A DNA stretch of 52,453 nucleotides from Patescibacteria group bacterium (GTDB lineage Bacteria; Patescibacteriota; Minisyncoccia; Minisyncoccales; JAHCRE01). Made by a program: the position numbers and the translations under genes. Each line of letters opens with the position of its first letter. The stretch's first letter is position 1. Under the pieces are notes generated by a model, which worked only from the letters and a program-made list of their open reading frames with translations, had not been told where the DNA came from and ran no database searches. Of this stretch, positions 18,876-26,406 are shown piece by piece. Where the stretch lies: the NCBI GenBank assembly GCA_020148025.1, contig JAHCRH010000004.1, positions 1 to 52,453 of the forward strand, written 5' to 3'.

Positions 18876-18904
18876 ATTATAGCAAATTATTAAAAATTTG
18901 TCAA
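18876..18904 (-). promoter_or_regulatory. Consensus promoter for the 18.7-kb small RNA
   Basis: On the minus strand TTGACA (18904-18899), a 17-bp spacer, and TATAAT (18881-18876). Both boxes are perfect. It is divergent from ruvB. Confidence 0.8.
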
Positions 18905-18921
18905 GCCCCAACAATAAAACT

Positions 18922-19932
18922 ATGCCAAAACTTACTTCTCCCCTCCCTACTGAAGAAGATAAAGCTTTAGATTTAACCTTAAGACCAAAAACTTGGTCAG
19001 ATTTTGTTGGTCAGGAAAGATTAAAAAGAAATATTAAAATAATCATTGAAGCAGCAAAAAAAAGAAAAGAACCTTGCTGCGAGCACCTTTTATTTTACGG
19101 AGGAAGCGGACTTGGTAAGACTTCACTTGCTCATATTGTAGCTAAAGAGATGGATGCGGATATCCGAGTTACCTCGGGTCCGGCTATTGAAAAGGCGGGA
19201 GATTTAGCCGCCATTTTAACTAATCTTAAGGAAGGGGAAGTTCTTTTTATTGATGAATTTCACCGGATGAATAAAATTTGTGAAGAGTATCTTTATCCGG
19301 CAATGGAAGATTTTAAATTAAATCTAATTTTAGGTAAAGGGCCGATGGCCAGAACAATGGAATTGAAAGTTCCCCGATTCACTTTGATTGGAGCAACAAC
19401 CAGACTTGCTCTCCTAAGCTCTCCTCTAAGGTCTCGATTTGGAGCAATTTTTCAACTCAATTTTTATAAAATTGAAGATATTGAAAAGATTATCCAAAGA
19501 TCGGCTGAGATTTTGAAAGTAGAAATTGAACCAGAAGCTGTCAGCATCATTGCCAAGAGATCTCGCTTTACTCCCAGGGTAGCTAATCGACTTCTAAAAA
19601 GAGTAAGAGATTTTGCCCAGGTTGAGGGAAAAGGAATAATTACAAAAGAGATTGCCAAATCTGCTTTGGAGTTCTTGGAAGTTGATGAAATGGGTCTGGA
19701 ACTCGGAGATCGACGCATTTTAGAGGCAATAATTAAAAAATTCAATGGAGGGCCAGTTGGACTTCAGGCAATAGCGGCAGCAGTTTCAGAGGAAAAAGAC
19801 ACAATTTTGGATATCTATGAACCCTACCTAATGCAACTCGGGTTTATCGAAAGGACCCCCCGGGGAAGAATAGTATCTAGTTTGGCCTACAAGCATTTAA
19901 AAATCTCTGGCAATCAAAAAAGGTTGATATGA
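18922..19932 (+). CDS. ruvB: Holliday junction branch migration ATPase RuvB
   Basis: The AAA+ motor of branch migration. The 336-residue protein has [16 protein letters not shown], Walker [12 protein letters not shown] (family usually GPPGLGKTTLA), Walker [11 protein letters not shown], sensor [19 protein letters not shown], and the winged-helix C-terminus [19 protein letters not shown] 18922 (MPKLTSPLP) is preferred to TTG 18898, which overlaps the divergent small-RNA promoter. ruvC is not in the window and ruvA is 9 kb away. Confidence 0.95.
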
Positions 19933-20144
19933 GAAAAATTTTTCCTTCTTAATTACTTTATGGATGGGTTAGAATCTTTTTGAGAATTAAAATAAGATTC
20001 TACCCTTGCCGGCTGGACCTGACGCCGAGGAAGAATGGATTGTCCCCACAAAACAACATTTTCTGTATTCGTAACTACTCAATTACTTCCTAAGAATGAA
20101 GCGAGAAAGTTGAGTTTATCTAAAGTATGAGTTAGAAAAGAGCT
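19933..20144. other. Intergenic region between ruvB and the array
   Basis: No gene seen. A hairpin at 19966-20005 (GGGTTAGAATC with GATTCTACCC) may end ruvB transcription. The rest is unremarkable except a weak inverted pair CTCAATT/GTTGAG near 20090-20115. Confidence 0.5.
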
Positions 20145-20161
20145 CGCCCAAGAGCCGCCGC

Positions 20162-20190
20162 TTGACAAACCTTTTATCCGAATATATACT
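20162..20190 (+). promoter_or_regulatory. Promoter of array unit 1
   Basis: TTGACA, 17-bp spacer, TATACT. The preceding GCCCAAGAGCCGCCG resembles the boundary block at 24444-24484. Confidence 0.8.
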
Positions 20191-20218
20191 ACAAATACTT
20201 AAAAGGAGGTGAAGCTAA

Positions 20219-20626
20219 ATGCCGGTTATTACTGTATTGGGAGTTCCTTCCACATGGAATCAGATAACACCAAATGATATTAAGAGATATCGTGAAAAAT
20301 TACTGAACGCTGTTCTATCAGTTAAGGAGTTGAAACTAACACCAGAACAAATCTCGATTTTCTGTCTACCAGAAAAAAGAGAGGATTGGGCTGAAGACAA
20401 AGAAGAAACCATAGTCATCTTCGTTGACGGTCTCTTTGAAAAGCCAGAGAGAACTAATCAAGTGAGGAATAGACTCGCAGAGAACTTAGGAAAAGCGACC
20501 GAAGATTCATTCCCCCAGTTTTTAGTTGAGTGTTTCGTCAAACCACCATTCAATCCAGAAGTAGGTTTCTGGACATCAGCCAAGACAGAAGAACCTTCAG
20601 AAAGAGCAAGCGAAATCAGCGATTAA
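20219..20626 (+). CDS. Array gene 1, possible tautomerase-fold protein
   Basis: The 135-residue protein starts MPVITVLGVPSTWNQ. A processed Met followed by Pro and a short beta strand recalls the catalytic Pro of 4-oxalocrotonate tautomerase-like proteins, and the alternation of helix (KRYREKLLNAVLSV) and strand (ETIVIFVDGLFEKP) is compatible with that fold. I cannot confirm the family. AAGGAGGTGA precedes the ATG by 8 nt, an ideal ribosome binding site. It has its own promoter and a terminator at 20648-20680. Confidence 0.75.
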   Translation: MPVITVLGVPSTWNQITPNDIKRYREKLLNAVLSVKELKLTPEQISIFCLPEKREDWAEDKEETIVIFVDGLFEKPERTNQVRNRLAENLGKATEDSFPQFLVECFVKPPFNPEVGFWTSAKTEEPSERASEISD

Positions 20627-20647
20627 TCAAAGCTCTTTAATTCTCAT

Positions 20648-20680
20648 AGAGGCAGAATCTCATTGTTGCCTCTCTTTTTT
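20648..20680 (+). terminator. Terminator of array unit 1
   Basis: AGAGGCA and TGCCTCT around a 12-nt loop, followed by CTTTTTTTATTT that runs into the boundary block. Confidence 0.85.
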
Positions 20681-20720
20681 TATTTCCGCGCCGCCCCGAG
20701 AGTTTTTCTCGGGGTTTTGG
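20672..20720 (+). repeat. Array boundary A
   Basis: CTCTTTTTTTATTTCCGCG, CCG, then hairpin CCCCGAGAG, TTTTT, CTCGGGG, then TTTTGG. Hairpin at 20694-20714. Confidence 0.85.
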
Positions 20721-20730
20721 TTTTATACAC

Positions 20731-20758
20731 TTGACAAGGTTTTAGTTAGAAAGATAAT
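20731..20758 (+). promoter_or_regulatory. Promoter of the array RNA unit
   Basis: TTGACA, 16-bp spacer, GATAAT. Expected start near 20765. Confidence 0.75.
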
Positions 20759-20764
20759 AGAAGT

Positions 20765-20995
20765 AGAGGGAGTCACTCTTTGGGACAATAAAAATAACTA
20801 ACCGTCCTCGGATGACTAATGTCTACGAGGCGCCCATAACAAAAGGGCCACAGAGATTCTCTCACGGCTATATTTAAAAAACCAATCGTTACTGTCCCAA
20901 AGAGACTCTCTCTCACATCTCATTTAGAGATGAGAGTAGCACCTTAACAAACTTACATAATAGTTATGGCACACACCCGTGTGCCTCTTTTTTTT
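20765..20995 (+). ncRNA. Structured non-coding RNA in the array
   Basis: This unit has promoter and terminator but no credible gene. The transcript of about 230 nt closes with a long helix: GAGTC plus CTCTTTGGGACA (from 20771) pairs with TGTCCCAAAGAG and GACTC (to 20908). Inside, CCGT/ACGG encloses three hairpins: CCTCG/CGAGG, GCCC/GGGC and AGAG/CTCT. After the closing helix comes CATCTC-ATTTA-GAGATG, then the terminator GGCACAC-ACCC-GTGTGCC with eight T. A 21-codon ATG frame at 20812 has no ribosome binding site. I do not recognise an RNA family. Confidence 0.7.
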
Positions 20996-21035
20996 ATTTT
21001 CGCTCCTCCAGAGAGTTTTTCTCTCGGGGTTTTGG
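20985..21035 (+). repeat. Array boundary B
   Basis: CTCTTTTTTTTATTTTCGC, then hairpin AGAGAG, TTTTT, CTCTC, GGGG (21010-21029). The left hairpin arm has diverged from CCCCGAGAG. Confidence 0.8.
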
Positions 21036-21047
21036 TTTAGCCGTCCA

Positions 21048-21076
21048 TTGACAAAATTTTATAAAGATATATTATT
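21048..21076 (+). promoter_or_regulatory. Promoter of array unit 3
   Basis: TTGACA, 17-bp spacer, ATTATT. Confidence 0.65.
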
Positions 21077-21104
21077 CAAATTAGGAAAATAAGGAGGGGT
21101 AAGA

Positions 21105-21341
21105 ATGAAAGCTTTTGGCCTGGAAAGAGAAAAATGGTGGTCAAACCTACGTGAAGATATGGGAATGGTGGTCACTGCAGCATCTGAAGACGAAGCTCTT
21201 GAGAAAGTGGCTGGAAAATTTAATGGTAAAGTAGAGGCTAATTCTAATCAGGGCAAGTTCGTTTCTCTTCCTCAAAAACACCCAGATTCCAAGGACTACC
21301 AGCCGTATATCTATTTAGCCGAAAAAGGACTCATTGCCTAG
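21105..21341 (+). CDS. Array gene 3, small protein of unknown function
   Basis: The 78-residue protein MKAFGLEREKWWSNLREDMG is soluble, with no membrane segment or known motif that I recognise. The middle AASEDEALEKVAGKFNG looks like a helix that might pack on a small alpha/beta fold. AAGGAGG lies 7 nt before the ATG. Promoter and terminator (21383-21419) are its own. Confidence 0.75.
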   Translation: MKAFGLEREKWWSNLREDMGMVVTAASEDEALEKVAGKFNGKVEANSNQGKFVSLPQKHPDSKDYQPYIYLAEKGLIA

Positions 21342-21382
21342 CTCTTTTAATAAACGACTAATTGCAGAACGAATTTCTTTAA

Positions 21383-21419
21383 AGGTGCTAAATTCACAAG
21401 AATACGGCACCTCTTTTTT
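21383..21419 (+). terminator. Terminator of array unit 3
   Basis: AGGTGC and GCACCT with an 18-nt loop, then CTTTTTTATTT. Confidence 0.75.
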
Positions 21420-21453
21420 ATTTCCGCCGCCATCCCGAGAGTTTTTCTCGGGG
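21411..21453 (+). repeat. Array boundary C
   Basis: CTCTTTTTTATTTCCGCCGC, CAT, then CCCGAGAG, TTTTT, CTCGGGG (hairpin 21434-21453). Confidence 0.85.
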
Positions 21454-21465
21454 AAGCCGTTGCTC

Positions 21466-21494
21466 TTGACATGATTCAGAATAAGGCATACAAT
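21466..21494 (+). promoter_or_regulatory. Promoter of array unit 4
   Basis: TTGACA, 17-bp spacer, TACAAT. It covers the first codons of the longest open frame, so the true start must be downstream. Confidence 0.8.
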
Positions 21495-21521
21495 ACAGAT
21501 AGTAAAAATGGAGGGATCGGA

Positions 21522-21989
21522 ATGGGCGAGCTTTCCATATTTTCAGAGAAAGACTCTCTTGTTAAAATACACGCGGTAGCACTAAAGAAGTTAATAGTTC
21601 AATCGGCTGCTGAGATAATTAATGCCTGCGATAGTCATAATCCTGTCAAGATAAAGTTCCCTAACTCAAAAACTGCTAAGATATTAGCAAAAGACCTACA
21701 GTGGAGTTTCCGCGGTTTTGTTGATGGCCTTGCGACTAAAGCAGATCTAATTCTGGCTTATGTAAAAGCCATCGTTGATGCAGAAGGAGAATCAAAGTTA
21801 GCAACAGCACTGAAACAAAGAGAGGTAATACTAATTAGAGAAGCACTTGAAAGATTTCAAAAATGGAAAACAGAGTATTGCGAGGAGAATCGGCGGATTC
21901 ACGGCAAAGAATGGGCCAAAGGCGTAGAACTTTATAATAAAGATTGGACCGAACTAAACAAAAAATTCAGCGCTCTATTCTGGAAATAG
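21522..21989 (+). CDS. Array gene 4, helical protein of unknown function
   Basis: The 155-residue protein MGELSIFSEKDSLVKIHAV is predominantly helical and charged, with a long helix in the second half (LKQREVILIREALERFQKWK). I do not recognise a family. An open frame begins at 21471, but that lies inside the promoter; GGAGGG at about 21511 sets ATG 21522 as the start. The terminator CCCGAGG/CCTCGGG at 22011-22033 follows. Confidence 0.75.
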   Translation: MGELSIFSEKDSLVKIHAVALKKLIVQSAAEIINACDSHNPVKIKFPNSKTAKILAKDLQWSFRGFVDGLATKADLILAYVKAIVDAEGESKLATALKQREVILIREALERFQKWKTEYCEENRRIHGKEWAKGVELYNKDWTELNKKFSALFWK

Positions 21990-22010
21990 AACATTATACA
22001 ACTTCTATAT

Positions 22011-22033
22011 AACCCGAGGCCTCGGGTTTTTTT
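22011..22033 (+). terminator. Terminator of array unit 4
   Basis: ACCCGAGG directly followed by CCTCGGGT and TTTTTTATTT. Confidence 0.85.
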
Positions 22034-22070
22034 ATTTCCGCGCCGGCCCGAGAGTTTTTCTCGGGGTTTG
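22026..22070 (+). repeat. Array boundary D
   Basis: GTTTTTTTATTTCCGCG, CCGG, then CCCGAGAG, TTTTT, CTCGGGG (hairpin 22047-22066). Confidence 0.85.
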
Positions 22071-22073
22071 ATG

Positions 22074-22082
22074 TGATATAAT
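22074..22082 (+). promoter_or_regulatory. Extended -10 promoter of array unit 5 (leaderless)
   Basis: TGATATAAT is an extended -10. It ends 7 nt before the ATG, so transcription would begin at or beside the start codon. The -35 position falls in the boundary hairpin. Confidence 0.65.
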
Positions 22083-22089
22083 CTGTTAT

Positions 22090-22299
22090 ATGAAAGATAA
22101 TTATCAAAGAAGCATTATAAAATCAATAAGTTGGAGATTCGTCGCAACATTAACGACAATGATAATAATATTTGCCTTCACAGGAAAGATTATGCTCTCT
22201 CTTGGAGTCGGTTTTTTTGAAGCAATCTCAAAAATCATTCTTTACTATATCCACGAACGGTTCTGGAATAAGATTAGTTGGGGGCAACTCCAGGTCTAA
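22090..22299 (+). CDS. DUF2061 membrane protein
   Basis: The 69-residue protein matches DUF2061: RSIIKSISWRFVATLTTM, a second membrane segment SLGVGFFEAISKIILYYIHE, and the closing HERFWNKISWG. It is a two-helix inner-membrane protein of unknown function, often linked to sulfur-assimilation loci elsewhere. It has no Shine-Dalgarno and looks leaderless, unlike the other array genes. It is the only array protein I place in a named family with good confidence. Confidence 0.85.
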   Translation: MKDNYQRSIIKSISWRFVATLTTMIIIFAFTGKIMLSLGVGFFEAISKIILYYIHERFWNKISWGQLQV

Positions 22300-22328
22300 A
22301 ACAGGTTCTAATCGTCCACTAGGGGAGC

Positions 22329-22358
22329 CGCGCGCGGGCCCGAGAGTTTTTCTCGGGT
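22329..22358 (+). repeat. Array boundary E
   Basis: Lacks the T-run; GCCGCGCGCGGG leads into CCCGAGAG, TTTTT, CTCGGG (22339-22357). It is preceded by ACAGGTTCTAATCGTCC, which recurs as ACAGGTTCTAACATCGTCC at about 24937 before boundary J. Confidence 0.8.
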
Positions 22359-22368
22359 AGGTCCGCTG

Positions 22369-22397
22369 TTGACAGGTTTTAGGATATTTGTTAGAAA
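22369..22397 (+). promoter_or_regulatory. Promoter of array unit 6
   Basis: TTGACA, 17-bp spacer, TAGAAA (weak -10). Confidence 0.55.
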
Positions 22398-22430
22398 AGA
22401 ATAGTTGTTTAAAAATCACGGTGAGTTAAA

Positions 22431-22937
22431 TTGAATAAAGAAGGATTTAGACTTGAAAGACATGCTCAACTAACATCGCATGGGAGAAGAGCCGTAGAGA
22501 GATTCTTGAAAAGTATGGAAGAGGAAGGAAAACCTCCTTCGGTTATCCAAAAAAGCGTAGTTTTAGAATTCCTGCAGCTACACGAAGAAACCATAGATAC
22601 AAGGATACAGCCAGAGAAAAGATTCAAAGACATACTCAGAAGGATGGCTGAAGAGCGAGAATTACCATTACTTGTGTTTGAGTATCTGTTCAGAGAGAGC
22701 GCCAAAAGTGTCTTATCTGCCGTTGAAAAGAAAGAAACTGACATTATTTTAACGAGAGACCAAATCACTGCCCTTCAAGAGGTTATAGAGGTTTTAAAAG
22801 GAATATGTGACCACTGCGGTGGAGAAGGAGAGGTTCCGTTAGGCGAAGGAGTTCAAAAAAAGACATGCCCTAAATGTAAAGGTGCCGGAGAGATTAAGCC
22901 CAAAGGAATTGACGCAGAAGAATTCGAAAAATACTAA
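22431..22937 (+). CDS. Array gene 6, helical protein with DnaJ-type zinc-finger half
   Basis: The 168-residue protein has a helical N-terminal 120 residues and ends with CDHCGGEGEVPLGEGV and CPKCKGAGEI, two CxxCxGxG motifs that form one zinc site as in the DnaJ cysteine-rich domain. No J domain is present, so this is not DnaJ. Such modules bind zinc and sometimes unfolded peptides. The start is TTG at 22431 with GGTGAG 6 nt upstream. The terminator is at 22937-22966. Confidence 0.75.
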   Translation: MNKEGFRLERHAQLTSHGRRAVERFLKSMEEEGKPPSVIQKSVVLEFLQLHEETIDTRIQPEKRFKDILRRMAEERELPLLVFEYLFRESAKSVLSAVEKKETDIILTRDQITALQEVIEVLKGICDHCGGEGEVPLGEGVQKKTCPKCKGAGEIKPKGIDAEEFEKY

Positions 22938-22966
22938 GAGACAAAACCCCATTGTCTCTTTTTTAT
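22937..22966 (+). terminator. Terminator of array unit 6
   Basis: AGAGACAA and TTGTCTCT around ACCCCA, then TTTTTATTTT. Confidence 0.85.
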
Positions 22967-23002
22967 TTTCGGTCGCCCCACCCCGAGAGTTTTTCTCGGG
23001 GT
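22956..23002 (+). repeat. Array boundary F
   Basis: CTCTTTTTTATTTTCGG, TCGCCCCA, then CCCCGAGAG, TTTTT, CTCGGGG (22981-23001). It abuts the next -35 box. Confidence 0.85.
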
Positions 23003-23030
23003 TGACTTTTAGATTAGGGTTTGATAGTAT
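23002..23030 (+). promoter_or_regulatory. Promoter of array unit 7
   Basis: TTGACT, 17-bp spacer, TAGTAT; the -35 follows the boundary hairpin without a gap. Confidence 0.65.
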
Positions 23031-23053
23031 AAATCGTAAAAAGGAGGGATTAA

Positions 23054-23365
23054 ATGAAAGCATTTTTGCTCTTTAATGTGGGAATCAATGGAATGGAGAC
23101 AGAATTCGTAGTTCTCACAAGTTCTCCTGAAGAACTTGTGAAGATGTGCGGTGGTTCTTTAGTAAAAGGCGTTCTTACCGATGCACCCTTAAGATGGAAA
23201 GTGGATGCGATATGTCTTCCAAAAGATTTCACTCCCAAGAAGGGCTTCGAAGCTCTTAAAAAGATTTACATAGCAAAGTCAAGTTTCACTACAGGAGGAA
23301 AGACCTTATACTTTAAGGAAATTCCTATATTAGCAGACGGTGAAGTTGCCATCTTGACCCCATAG
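23054..23365 (+). CDS. Array gene 7, small protein of unknown function
   Basis: The 103-residue protein MKAFLLFNVGINGMETEFVV looks like a small alpha/beta domain (strand, turn, strand, then the helix SPEELVKMCGG). It shares the opening MKAF with array gene 3 but no further clear similarity. AAGGAGGG precedes the ATG. Its own promoter and terminator (23366-23395) flank it. Confidence 0.75.
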   Translation: MKAFLLFNVGINGMETEFVVLTSSPEELVKMCGGSLVKGVLTDAPLRWKVDAICLPKDFTPKKGFEALKKIYIAKSSFTTGGKTLYFKEIPILADGEVAILTP

Positions 23366-23395
23366 GAGCGTTTCAAATCTTAACGCTCTTTTTTA
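23366..23395 (+). terminator. Terminator of array unit 7
   Basis: GAGCGTT and AACGCTC with a 9-nt loop, then TTTTTTATTT. Confidence 0.85.
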
Positions 23396-23432
23396 TTTCC
23401 CGCCGCCCCGAGAGTTTTTCTCTCGGGGTTTT
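23386..23432 (+). repeat. Array boundary G
   Basis: CTCTTTTTTATTTCCCGCCG, then CCCCGAGAG, TTTTT, CTCTCGGGG (23406-23428), then TTTTG. Confidence 0.85.
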
Positions 23433-23445
23433 GTTCGTGCAGGAC

Positions 23446-23475
23446 TTGACAAATTTAGAATTAATATGATATAAT
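23446..23475 (+). promoter_or_regulatory. Promoter of array unit 8
   Basis: TTGACA, 18-bp spacer ending in TGA, TATAAT. Near-perfect consensus. Confidence 0.85.
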
Positions 23476-23498
23476 TGAAGATGTAAAAGGTGAGGATA

Positions 23499-23789
23499 GT
23501 GGAATATTATGTAGTAGATGATGTTGGAGGAGGGCAGCAAACGAAAGGAGTGCTCTTAGAAGTAGTTAGGGACCGGAAACCCGAGCTGCCAACTAAACAT
23601 ATGATATTGGTAGACGTAGGAGTTCACTGCAGTGAAGCATCGCCTGGTCTTTATCGAAAAAAGATAAAAGCAACCTTCTATGAGGAAATCGTCGTCTTTG
23701 AAAAACCTGATGGAACAGTCTTAATCGTGCCTTCTGATCTCGAGAAAAAAAATCGAGCAAAAGTCCTTAACTTCTTAACCACTCCGTAA
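23499..23789 (+). CDS. Array gene 8, small protein of unknown function
   Basis: The 96-residue protein begins MEYYVVDDVGGGQQTKGVLL if the GTG at 23499 is used, which sits 5 nt after AGGTGA. A GTG at 23490 would overlap that ribosome binding site. The sequence looks beta-rich (ILVDVGVH, ATFYEEIVVFE, GTVLIVPSD). No family recognised. The terminator is at 23798-23828. Confidence 0.7.
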   Translation: MEYYVVDDVGGGQQTKGVLLEVVRDRKPELPTKHMILVDVGVHCSEASPGLYRKKIKATFYEEIVVFEKPDGTVLIVPSDLEKKNRAKVLNFLTTP

Positions 23790-23797
23790 AGTCTTTC

Positions 23798-23828
23798 GGG
23801 CAGACTCTAAATGCCCTCTTTTTTTATT
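23798..23828 (+). terminator. Terminator of array unit 8
   Basis: GGGCA and TGCCC, then TCTTTTTTTATT. Confidence 0.75.
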
Positions 23829-23926
23829 CTAAATAGCTAACAATCCTCTTATTTGTCCTAACAAAACCTCAGGATCCTTCACAAGCTCCACCCACTCAAA
23901 AGTTCGAAAATCGTCCCACCCGGGGA
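23829..23926 (-). pseudogene. Possible gene remnant in the array
   Basis: On the minus strand the stretch between terminator 8 and boundary H reads LPGWDDFRTFEWVELV followed by KDPEVLLGQIRGLLAI and a stop. It looks like a protein C-terminus but has no start, promoter or upstream domain. The longer open frame to 24089 runs through the boundary and the neighbouring gene, so it is unlikely to be real. Family unknown. Confidence 0.3.
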
Positions 23927-23962
23927 GCTTTTTTATTTCCGCCCGCCCCTGCCTTCGGAGAG
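23927..23962 (+). repeat. Array boundary H (variant)
   Basis: GAGCTTTTTTATTTCCGCCC, GCCCCTGCC, TTCGGAGAG. It lacks the TTTTTCTCGGGG half and resembles boundary I, so the inverted unit is bracketed by two like variants in direct orientation. Confidence 0.7.
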
Positions 23963-23982
23963 CTATCACCTTAATTTTTATT

Positions 23983-24013
23983 AAAAAAAGAAGCCGAGCA
24001 TTGAACTCAGCTT
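23983..24013 (-). terminator. Terminator of the inverted unit
   Basis: On the minus strand AGCTGAG, a TTCAATG loop, CTCGGCT, then TCTTTTTTT. Confidence 0.8.
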
Positions 24014-24366
24014 GAAATCTTTGAGCATTTTCTTGGTTTTTCAACTTTGTAAAGAACTTTCCAATAGACACTCCACACGCATATCCCAAATAGCTTGTCT
24101 TCAGTTATAGAATCTTTTTCTTCGGGACTTTTTTTGATGGAGTCATTCTTCGAAGACGCGACTTCAGAACAATAAGAAAGAGTCACCTGTATACTAGGAG
24201 GAGCACTCTTAATCGATACAACCTTCGCTTCTCTGAAATGAGGACACGACGGACATTGTTTTTTCTGCTGGATAATGTTTCCTGAATATCTGCTCTCATA
24301 TTTTCCTCTTTTATATCTGCCTGTCTTTGGGTTAAATACTATCTTTATTGGTTCGTTTGTAGTCAA
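24007..24366 (-). CDS. Array gene 9 (inverted), cysteine-containing protein of unknown function
   Basis: The 119-residue protein (MTTNEPIKIVFNPKTGRYKR) has a CPSCPHF motif near residue 38 and further cysteines (SYCSE, GICVW, KCSK) that could bind metal. No family recognised. The start is TTG at 24366, supported by AAAGGAG 10 nt upstream and a TTGACA promoter at 24411-24439 on the minus strand. It is the only array gene in reverse orientation, back to back with array gene 10 across boundary I. Confidence 0.7.
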   Translation of the reverse strand: MTTNEPIKIVFNPKTGRYKRGKYESRYSGNIIQQKKQCPSCPHFREAKVVSIKSAPPSIQVTLSYCSEVASSKNDSIKKSPEEKDSITEDKLFGICVWSVYWKVLYKVEKPRKCSKISS

Positions 24367-24410
24367 AAACTCAAATCTCCTTTATTAATGCCTTATTGAG
24401 AACTATTTAT

Positions 24411-24439
24411 AATTTAGAAAATTATCTTAGATTTGTCAA
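24411..24439 (-). promoter_or_regulatory. Promoter of the inverted unit
   Basis: On the minus strand TTGACA, 17-bp spacer, TAAATT. Confidence 0.7.
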
Positions 24440-24443
24440 AAAG

Positions 24444-24484
24444 GAGCTTTTTTATTTCCGCCGCCCTGCCCTGAGAGCCGCCGA
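24444..24484 (+). repeat. Array boundary I (variant)
   Basis: GAGCTTTTTTATTTCCGCCG, CCCTGCCCTGAGAGCCGCCG. The end matches the left edge of the array (AGAGCCGCCG at about 20151). Confidence 0.75.
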
Positions 24485-24485
24485 T

Positions 24486-24514
24486 TTGACAAACTTTTCA
24501 ATAAGGTATATGAT
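24486..24514 (+). promoter_or_regulatory. Promoter of array unit 10
   Basis: TTGACA, 17-bp spacer, TATGAT. Confidence 0.8.
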
Positions 24515-24539
24515 GACAGCGTAAAAGGAGGGTGAAAGA

Positions 24540-24860
24540 ATGAAACTTTGTTGGGTAGGTTTTTGGGACAGCATTAAAGAATACGGTGCATACATACTAG
24601 AAACTATAAAGACAGGAGAACCAGAGCTACGAGGATTCGGAGCCACATCAGATCTTGCCAAATTAGCTGCAGAAATCAAACAGTTAGTCAAGCAACATCC
24701 TAAAGAAGGCATAGCCATAAGATACGAACCGCCAGGGACTGATATCGTTACTATGTGGGGCGATGGTTCTATAACTCTCAATAGCGCAGGTAAGGACTTT
24801 CGAGCTCTTAACCCAGAAGAGATTGCCCAGTTCCGTAAGGCATTCTTAGAAGTTCAATAA
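24540..24860 (+). CDS. Array gene 10, small protein of unknown function
   Basis: The 106-residue protein MKLCWVGFWDSIKEYGAYIL continues with a helix (SDLAKLAAEIKQLVKQHP), then strands (GIAIRYEPPGTDIVTMWGDG), and a final helix. No family recognised. AAAGGAGGGTGA lies before the ATG. Terminator at 24897-24921. Confidence 0.75.
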   Translation: MKLCWVGFWDSIKEYGAYILETIKTGEPELRGFGATSDLAKLAAEIKQLVKQHPKEGIAIRYEPPGTDIVTMWGDGSITLNSAGKDFRALNPEEIAQFRKAFLEVQ

Positions 24861-24896
24861 ACATAGCTTTTTTCTTTCTTTTTTCTTCAAATTTTT

Positions 24897-24921
24897 GAGG
24901 CTTCATGCCTCTTTTTTTATT
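24897..24921 (+). terminator. Terminator of array unit 10
   Basis: GAGGC, TTCAT, GCCTC, then TTTTTTTATTT. Confidence 0.85.
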
Positions 24922-24936
24922 TAATCTCCCACCAAA

Positions 24937-25027
24937 CAGGTTCTAACATCGTCCGTCCCTCGGAGCAGGCTAGTGCTCGGTTCGAGCGACCGAGCCGCTC
25001 GCCCCGAGAGTTTTTCTCGGGGTTTTA
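24937..25027 (+). repeat. Array boundary J (right edge)
   Basis: ACAGGTTCTAACATCGTCC, a CTCGGTTCGAGCGACCGAG hairpin, then CCCCGAGAG, TTTTT, CTCGGGG (25002-25022). The gene remnant begins directly after it. Confidence 0.8.
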
Positions 25028-25044
25028 TATAAGATTTGCTATAA

Positions 25045-25611
25045 TTTAACAAGATAGATTTTGAATGGATTGAGATTTTTAATAAAAATGGTTTTGAGAT
25101 TAATCTTTCTGATTGGGAAATTAAAGATACTATAGGTAGAACTAAAACTTATACTTTTCCAAAAGGAACGAAAATTTTAGCCAATGGATTTTTGGTTCTT
25201 AAAAGACCTATTACAAAAATTACCTTAAATAATAACGGCGATGGAGTATTGCTTATTCAGCCAGATGGAAAAATTACTGACGAAGTCAGTTATGAAAAAG
25301 CGTCTCATGACCAACCTTATAATCGAGTAGAATCTGGTTGGGTTTGGGACAATAATTTAACCCTTGGTTCCCAAAATATTATCCCAGTTTCAATTTTAAA
25401 ACCTGAAAAAGAAACTGAGGAAGGAAAAACTCAAGAATCTACTAGTGAAAAAGAGTTGGCAGCAATTGGCGAGCAAATCCCCAAAAAGATTTCTTCTTTT
25501 CTTCCTTTATTAATTGCCTCAGGAATTGCTATTTTCTCAGGGATAACTATTTTGATTCTCAAAAAAACGATAACCCGTCTTCGCTCGCCAAAGTTTCCGA
25601 GAGAAATTTAG
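25045..25611 (+). pseudogene. 5'-truncated lamin-tail-domain protein
   Basis: The frame opens after a stop at 25042 and reads FEWIEIFNKNGFEINLSDW, the interior of a lamin-tail (LTD) domain, then QPDGKITDEVSYEKAS, a Ser/Glu-rich linker and a C-terminal membrane helix FLPLLIASGIAIFSGI with a basic end. LTD proteins normally start with a signal peptide and a V.INEI strand; both are missing, and no ATG precedes the domain. Boundary J lies about 20 bp upstream, so the array or a rearrangement seems to have removed the 5' part. A TTG at 25192 could start a shorter peptide but would cut the domain. Confidence 0.7.
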
Positions 25612-26370: not shown

Positions 26371-26406
26371 TCCCGCTGCCCCGAGGGTTTTTCTCAGGGT
26401 TTTTTA
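26371..26406 (+). repeat. Outlying array boundary K
   Basis: CCCGCTG, then CCCCGAGGG, TTTTT, CTCAGGG, TTTTTTAT. It is a diverged copy of the boundary hairpin located 1.3 kb right of boundary J and about 45 bp before the comM remnant. Confidence 0.7.

Follow-up and report, generated by a model that had tools for sequence, protein, structure and literature searches.

A 52,453-nucleotide stretch of Patescibacteria contig JAHCRH010000004.1 (assembly GCA_020148025.1; hereafter the window) contains, at positions 20145-25027, a tandem array of ten small units, nine with an open reading frame (ORF) and one with a structured RNA, nearly all on the + strand. Its units are probably non-autonomous cassettes, strung in a row, that belong to a family of large serine recombinase (LSR) elements found across Patescibacteria. 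It looks like a worn example of an apparent serine-recombinase counterpart to integron cassette arrays. In its working it resembles a cassette array; by membership it would be a set of non-autonomous kin of the LSR elements and no integron. The original prediction, made from the letters of the window alone, had counted nine units with eight genes and had proposed a cassette system outside the classical integrons; the array proved real, the count had to be corrected, and the recurrence of single units in new contexts bears out the idea of such a system. The genome carrying the array is referred to below as G000 (contig G000:C20; assembly 91% complete), and its relatives by similar numbers.

Many of the hairpins at unit ends, three of them in the window, adjoin an attachment (att) motif, AGGTTCTAACATCGTCC-n6-GGAGC. 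Among 100 relatives, AGGTTCTAACATCGTCC had 218 matches in 51 genomes, where the reversed pattern had 8. Searched as an exact 20-base sequence, the motif was found in 28 public genome stretches, almost all from Patescibacteria. Small-gene arrays between such att sites were also present in Colwellbacteria, Parcubacteria BM507 and others, while a viral collection yielded one motif-bearing contig and no close relative of the LSR. GTTC and GAGC were invariant when sites of the window and of other arrays were aligned with the recombinase attP, tRNA-Asn genes and the end of an element. Several of the motifs read on, on the reverse strand, as a LPGWDDFRTFEWVELVKDPEVLLGQIRGLLAI-type peptide, and this tail matches the natural C-terminus of an intact LSR in genome G267 as well as more than ten other cassette ends. 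The window copy of the displaced C-terminal tail (LPGWDDFRTFEWVELVKDPEVLLGQIRGLLAI), which forms the P arm of the site, lies at 23832-23927 on the - strand and matches the G267 LSR at 47% over 32 residues (E 2.7e-6). That LSR (locus L201) has the Resolvase (PF00239) and Recombinase (PF07508) domains with a weak Zn-ribbon match and ends in WLPQWDDFRTLGW..., the DNA of this end being the att motif itself. The att arms are thus identical with LSR 3' ends and, because the tail peptides adjoining att sites match the natural C-terminus of an intact LSR, attP is predicted to lie inside the 3' end of the LSR's own gene. The six variable bases before GGAGC had been considered as tRNA acceptor signatures of donor species; this idea was dropped, as these bases are LSR codons (W-L-P-x-x-D-D-V/F-R-T).

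LSRs of this family integrate at tRNA-Asn with an exchange of their tails. The LSR of G376, 92% identical to that of L201, adjoins tRNA-Asn and ends in WLRRQDSNLRP, encoded by the tRNA-Asn antisense strand, and the two genes diverge at TGGCTCC, which reads GGAGCCA on the opposite strand. In two complete elements (L256 and L258), one end has tRNA-Asn and the LSR body, and the displaced tail lies at the opposite end. LSRs are common in the order, being present in 135 of 290 genomes; among the 30 best relatives of the LSR, eleven are neighbours of tRNA-Asn and others of tRNAs for Gln, Ser, Leu and Trp. The elements at tRNA-Asn measure 7-8 kb, and cassette arrays were also found behind tRNA-Asn (L207, L208, L140 and L146, in genomes G012, G081, UBA6532 and BP7.bin63), with a decayed LSR followed by small units at L146. 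The L201 LSR, whose tail is intact, has terminase-like genes as neighbours, and about 140 bases separate its end from rpoD, a place taken by tRNA-Asn in other genomes; the locus is possibly a prophage that displaced or lacks this tRNA gene.

The window array interrupts an LTD-domain gene. In G002 the gene after ruvB is intact, with two LTD domains and an empty site. In the window, ruvB (18898-19932, +; homologs 92% in G001 and 80% in G002, with the LTD gene adjoining in G002 and G007) is followed by a gene whose second LTD domain is split, running as ..LPAGPDAEEEWI to 20042 and resuming as ..FEWIEIFNKNGF from 25063, with GAATGGATTG as a direct repeat on both sides. The left half (20000-20042, +), which is uninterrupted in G002, ends with this repeat at 20033-20042, and the right half (25063-25611, +; PF00932, 7e-10) opens with it at 25063-25072. 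In G014 and G020, LSR genes end in exactly the GAATGGATTG LTD codons, and the window array therefore occupies an LSR attachment site. Some 30 open codons directly after the left core (20043-20134, +; RMDCPHKTTF..SKV) are, judged by their open frame, a candidate displaced recombinase tail, for which no homolog was found. Two different serine recombinases, from different families, are inserted in the same LTD-gene codons (L202:7625-9304 and L203:8835-10469), which are apparently an attachment hotspot. In the sister genome G001 a tRNA-Asn-like end, followed by a different cassette, interrupts the first domain of the LTD gene (L121:1-700), and the contig ends there.

Single units recur in new contexts, and from this we infer that cassettes move; we go no further than inference because no recombinase was found in the source genome. 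For unit 6, a 79% homolog lies at a different locus in G002, between unrelated flanks; the two are alike only between the -35 box and the terminator, and the 290 genomes otherwise gave only weak zinc-finger matches. A 65% homolog of unit 9 in G001 is likewise flanked by att and hairpin among unrelated neighbours, and an 86% copy of unit 10 lies between unrelated flanks on G000 contig C15, its right end lacking the att that the window copy has. Outside the window, G002 and G081 share a carboxypeptidase cassette at 95% DNA identity; the two belong to different families, and identity between their RpoD proteins is 72%. A cassette encoding 168 amino acids (aa), common to G002:C19 and G000:C2, is homologous from CCGCCGCC and hairpin to P arm and CGAGC core, whereas both flanks diverge. 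Its two ends carry the GGAG(C)/CGAGC core, so that units end at the core, and it gives the cleanest view of what appears to be the unit anatomy: core, hairpin, promoter, gene, P arm and core. Genome G092 was not counted as independent evidence: over about 10 kb, its contig C22 is essentially identical to G000:C15:38000-50000 though the genomes are of different families, and C22 is probably a mis-binned contig.

Based on these data, we propose that an element would integrate at the 3' end of tRNA-Asn (core GGAGC) and leave the last ~10-35 LSR codons at its far end. Cassettes would have the same ends minus the LSR, in the order core, terminator hairpin, promoter, gene, terminator, and LSR-tail P arm with core, and the hairpin would shield the cassette promoter from read-through. 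Such cassettes would pile up behind tRNA-Asn and also occupy secondary sites, the window array being a worn example at the LSR site in the LTD-domain gene, and their integration would be catalysed by an LSR supplied in trans. A broader view, which we offer tentatively as possible, is that Patescibacteria have an integron analogue with tRNA-Asn as its platform, an LSR tail and core as its site, self-expressing single-gene cassettes passing between families, and an enzyme provided in trans by phages or larger elements.

Several observations weigh against our proposal. Att half-sites are kept at three window boundaries (22302, 23900 and 24937) and are missing from 6-7 of the ten, and most of the att-less boundaries read TTTTTTATTT|CCGCC, which demands an extra step. 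Elsewhere the left end CCGCC follows a core, and TTTTTTATTTCCGCC directly follows the core at several sites; loss of att between T-runs is therefore plausible, and the att-less junctions may be later losses. No long open tail accompanies TAACATCG, the commonest att type, and coding was not supported for it: in a coding test on sites gathered by DNA, the DDFRT types (TAAAATCG/GAAAATCG) alone gained support, with 10 of 11 cases open, a codon-position test on tails from the protein search having been set aside as biased. The idea that the hairpin is encoded in the LSR 3'-end reading frame was rejected, distances to the P arm being even over the frames (24/24/21 of 69). For the G014 and G020 elements in the LTD gene, no left junction was detected over a distance of 10 kb, and no LSR above the cut-off was present in G000, G001, G002, G012 or G081, so the enzyme would have come from elsewhere, been lost, or be unassembled.

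The units themselves are compact, with ORFs along the array of 135, 78, 155, 69, 168, 103, 99, 119 (inverted) and 106 aa. Unit 1 (20162-20626) is a promoter with the 135-aa ORF at 20219-20626, and unit 2 (20731-20998) consists of promoter, structured RNA and terminator. They are followed by the ORFs of units 3 (78 aa, 21105-21341), 4 (155 aa, 21522-21989), 5 (22090-22299, a membrane protein), 6 (22431-22937, zinc-finger-like and apparently mobile), 7 (103 aa, 23054-23365) and 8 (99 aa, 23490-23789), by that of the inverted unit 9 (119 aa, 24007-24366, - strand), and by unit 10 (106 aa, 24540-24860); all but unit 9 are on the + strand. The 69-aa protein of unit 5 is the sole unit protein with a Pfam family (DUF2061; PF09834, 1.5e-17), and searches of the unit cargo against NCBIfam, PHROGs and PADLOC gave nothing beyond weak zinc-finger matches for unit 6. 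The C-terminal end of unit 6 has a CxxCxGxG-type zinc-binding stretch that resembles, with weak scores, DnaJ, anti-TRAP and phage Q-like proteins. The unit 2 RNA (20763-20985; -74 kcal/mol, z -7.5 versus shuffles) is predicted to fold into a long interrupted hairpin enclosing inner stems; it had no Rfam match and no relative among 196 genomes. One RNA unit and one inverted unit had been predicted, and both were confirmed. The prediction that each insert has its own promoter and terminator was likewise upheld, with promoter-like pairs scoring 10-12 of 12 ahead of most units (20162, 20731, 21048, 21466, 23446 and 24486 on the + strand; 24439 on the - strand for the inverted one); terminator-like sites numbered 16, versus 5.1 in shuffles.

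The boundaries between units are dominated by the hairpin CCGAGAGTTTTTCTCGG, with six exact copies in the array (20696, 21435, 22048, 22340, 22983 and 25004) and two variants (21009 and 23408), versus 0.1 expected in dinucleotide shuffles of the window at the same tolerance. A TTTTTATTTYCGC-type block occurs at 20677, 20991, 21415, 22029, 22960, 23930 and 24449 (1.5 expected at one mismatch). A single boundary block had been described almost throughout the array; this was true of most boundaries, eight of which bear the hairpin, but not of 23928-23963 and 24440-24485, which have no hairpin, nor of 22302-22361 and 24937-25025, where ATTTCCGCC is replaced by GGTTCTAA..TCGTCC..GGAGC, a motif that the original prediction had not picked out. 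Boundary blocks lie, all on the + strand, at 20675-20717 (with hairpin and no att arm), 20990-21032 (variant hairpin), 21414-21456, 22027-22069, 22962-23004 and 23387-23429 (longer hairpin). The att half-site at 22302-22361 (GGTTCTAATCGTCC..GGGGAGC, slightly deleted) is followed by a hairpin, that at 23900-23928 reads AGTTCGAAAATCGTCC-CACCCG-GGGAGC, and the boundary at 24440-24485 reads GGAGC-TTTTTTATTTCCGCC..CTGAGAGCCGCCG. The best kept half-site of the array (CAGGTTCTAACATCGTCC-GTCCCT-CGGAGC, 24937-24965) leads into a stem like the sequence downstream of tRNA-Asn and then a hairpin/terminator (24966-25025); AGGCTAGTG follows tRNA-Asn in G000, G001 and G012. These features are on the + strand as well. 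A sub-threshold Rfam match to anti-hemB at 24956-25030 (33.1 bits, E 6e-5, gathering 49.5) was driven by the T5-loop terminator hairpin, and another variant hairpin, CCGAGGGTTTTTCTCAG, lies outside the array at 26381-26397, 1.4 kb downstream.

The source genome has 19 exact copies of the hairpin, and its distribution is patchy, with copies in 7 of 100 relatives. G002, of the same family, has 22 and G001, of the same genus, has 3; four others have 8, 4, 3 and 1, and the remainder have none. In one orientation, the right side of a copy is usually a promoter and then a small gene, and the left side is a gene terminator with ATTTCCGCC, AAACAGGTTCTAACATCGTCC-n6-GGAGC, or a true tRNA 3' end, namely Gln in G000:C22 and Arg-His pairs in G000, G002 and G012. 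Ordinary genome-wide terminator use, which had been named as fatal to the original prediction, was found in part: the block does occur throughout the genome and resembles a terminator, but it stands only at the left ends of cassettes. A terminator-like hairpin followed the core within 90 bases at 39 of 78 sites versus 1 of 78 random places, and several hairpin types occupy this position, such as AATCGCC..GGCGAT and CCCGAGCC..GGCTCGGG. The hairpin is most likely one of several terminators that stop transcription from the tRNA or the preceding cassette, and the end of a unit can be defined without it. Between the tRNA-Arg-tRNA-His pair and htrA, four genomes have different small genes, with hairpins present (L066, L090, L076 and L078); the stretch after this tRNA pair is a second hotspot.

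That the palindromic boundary is the recombination site of an integron-like enzyme of a new kind, as first predicted, now seems very improbable. The palindrome is the commonest shared element of the array and is patchy among genomes as mobile elements are, and the att-less window boundaries consist of block and hairpin alone; yet other hairpins replace it at cored sites, hairpin boundaries also come after real tRNA 3' ends, and the cassette common to G002 and G000 ends exactly at the core beside the hairpin, this core and its left arm matching the LSR attP and the tRNA-Asn 3' end. A tyrosine or HUH recombinase had been expected beside other copies of the block; none was seen, in a search that covered the tyrosine class. 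A Xer-type enzyme acting at dif-like sites, in the manner of pdif modules, could draw on the one Xer-like gene (PF00589) found in most genomes (none in G012), but no array lay beside those that were read, and in the site alignment it is LSR genes and tRNA 3' ends that the att arm resembles, not a XerC/XerD site, which makes this reading extremely unlikely.

It is rather improbable that there is no dedicated mobility at all, the hairpin being an ordinary terminator and the genes changing place through homologous or illegitimate recombination at repeats. The genome-wide, terminator-like block would suit this, T-runs and hairpins do form short direct repeats, and the att-less junctions may well arise by repeat recombination; on the other side stand the patchiness of the hairpin, the cassette-sized transfer between families at 95% DNA identity, the LSR-derived arms at unit ends and the insertion at LSR sites. 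The units could instead be what decay has left of separate full LSR elements or prophages, integrated one behind another and each reduced to a single gene, and the 7-8 kb elements with the same ends at tRNA-Asn and the decayed LSR of L146 are in keeping with this. We consider it unlikely, as many units are alike in compact anatomy with promoter and gene intact, and one small unit has an identical right end at both of the loci where it is found, a result not expected from decay in place.

If cassettes of an LSR element family are indeed involved, they would explain the gain and swapping of orphan genes in very small, reduced, host-dependent genomes through serine rather than tyrosine recombinases. 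The att motif would be a searchable handle on mobile cargo across Patescibacteria, puzzling '..RQDSNLRP'-like recombinase C-termini would be explained as tRNA read-through, and the att/LSR pairs supplied here lend themselves to direct testing. No earlier description of such cassettes was found in the open-licence papers searched.

Among known systems, integron cassettes and clusters of attC sites lacking integron-integrases (CALINs) are similar in their tandem one-gene cassettes between related recombination sites, in an orientation that is fixed bar exceptions, and in their mostly orphan genes, patchy between genomes. They differ in the site, which in the array is an LSR attP half with a tRNA-like core, and in their cassettes, which are usually promoterless, whereas the array units mostly have near-consensus promoters, plus terminators. 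No IntI-type integrase was found next to the array in the PF00589 search, and the aligned sites share AGGTTCRAA..TCC and GAGC with no GTTRRRY at the right end when set against the consensus of the attC R''/R' boxes (RYYYAAC ... GTTRRRY). The staphylococcal cassette chromosome (SCC) is alike in that serine-recombinase elements, some of them without a recombinase, pile up in tandem at a single site. SCC elements are tens of kb in size, use rlmH and carry ccr serine recombinases; here the units are single genes at tRNA-Asn and other sites, and the array has neither ccr genes nor an rlmH site, its site being tRNA-Asn or the LTD gene, with no serine recombinase within it. LSR elements and prophages of the phiC31/Bxb1 type are alike in having attP and attB with a short common core, in integrating at tRNA 3' ends and in an enzyme of Resolvase, Recombinase and Zn ribbon, as in the LSR of the relatives. 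The array cassettes, of about 0.3-1.5 kb, are without enzyme, and no Resolvase and Recombinase domains were found in the array or in G000 above the cut-off. They share with LSR elements the att at their ends, with the P arm equal to an LSR 3' end at three window sites, and a core repeat at both ends of the array (GAATGGATTG at 20033 and 25063). Unlike the phiC31/Bxb1 type, the LSR family described here appears to have its attP inside the 3' end of the enzyme gene, so that the tail is exchanged upon integration.

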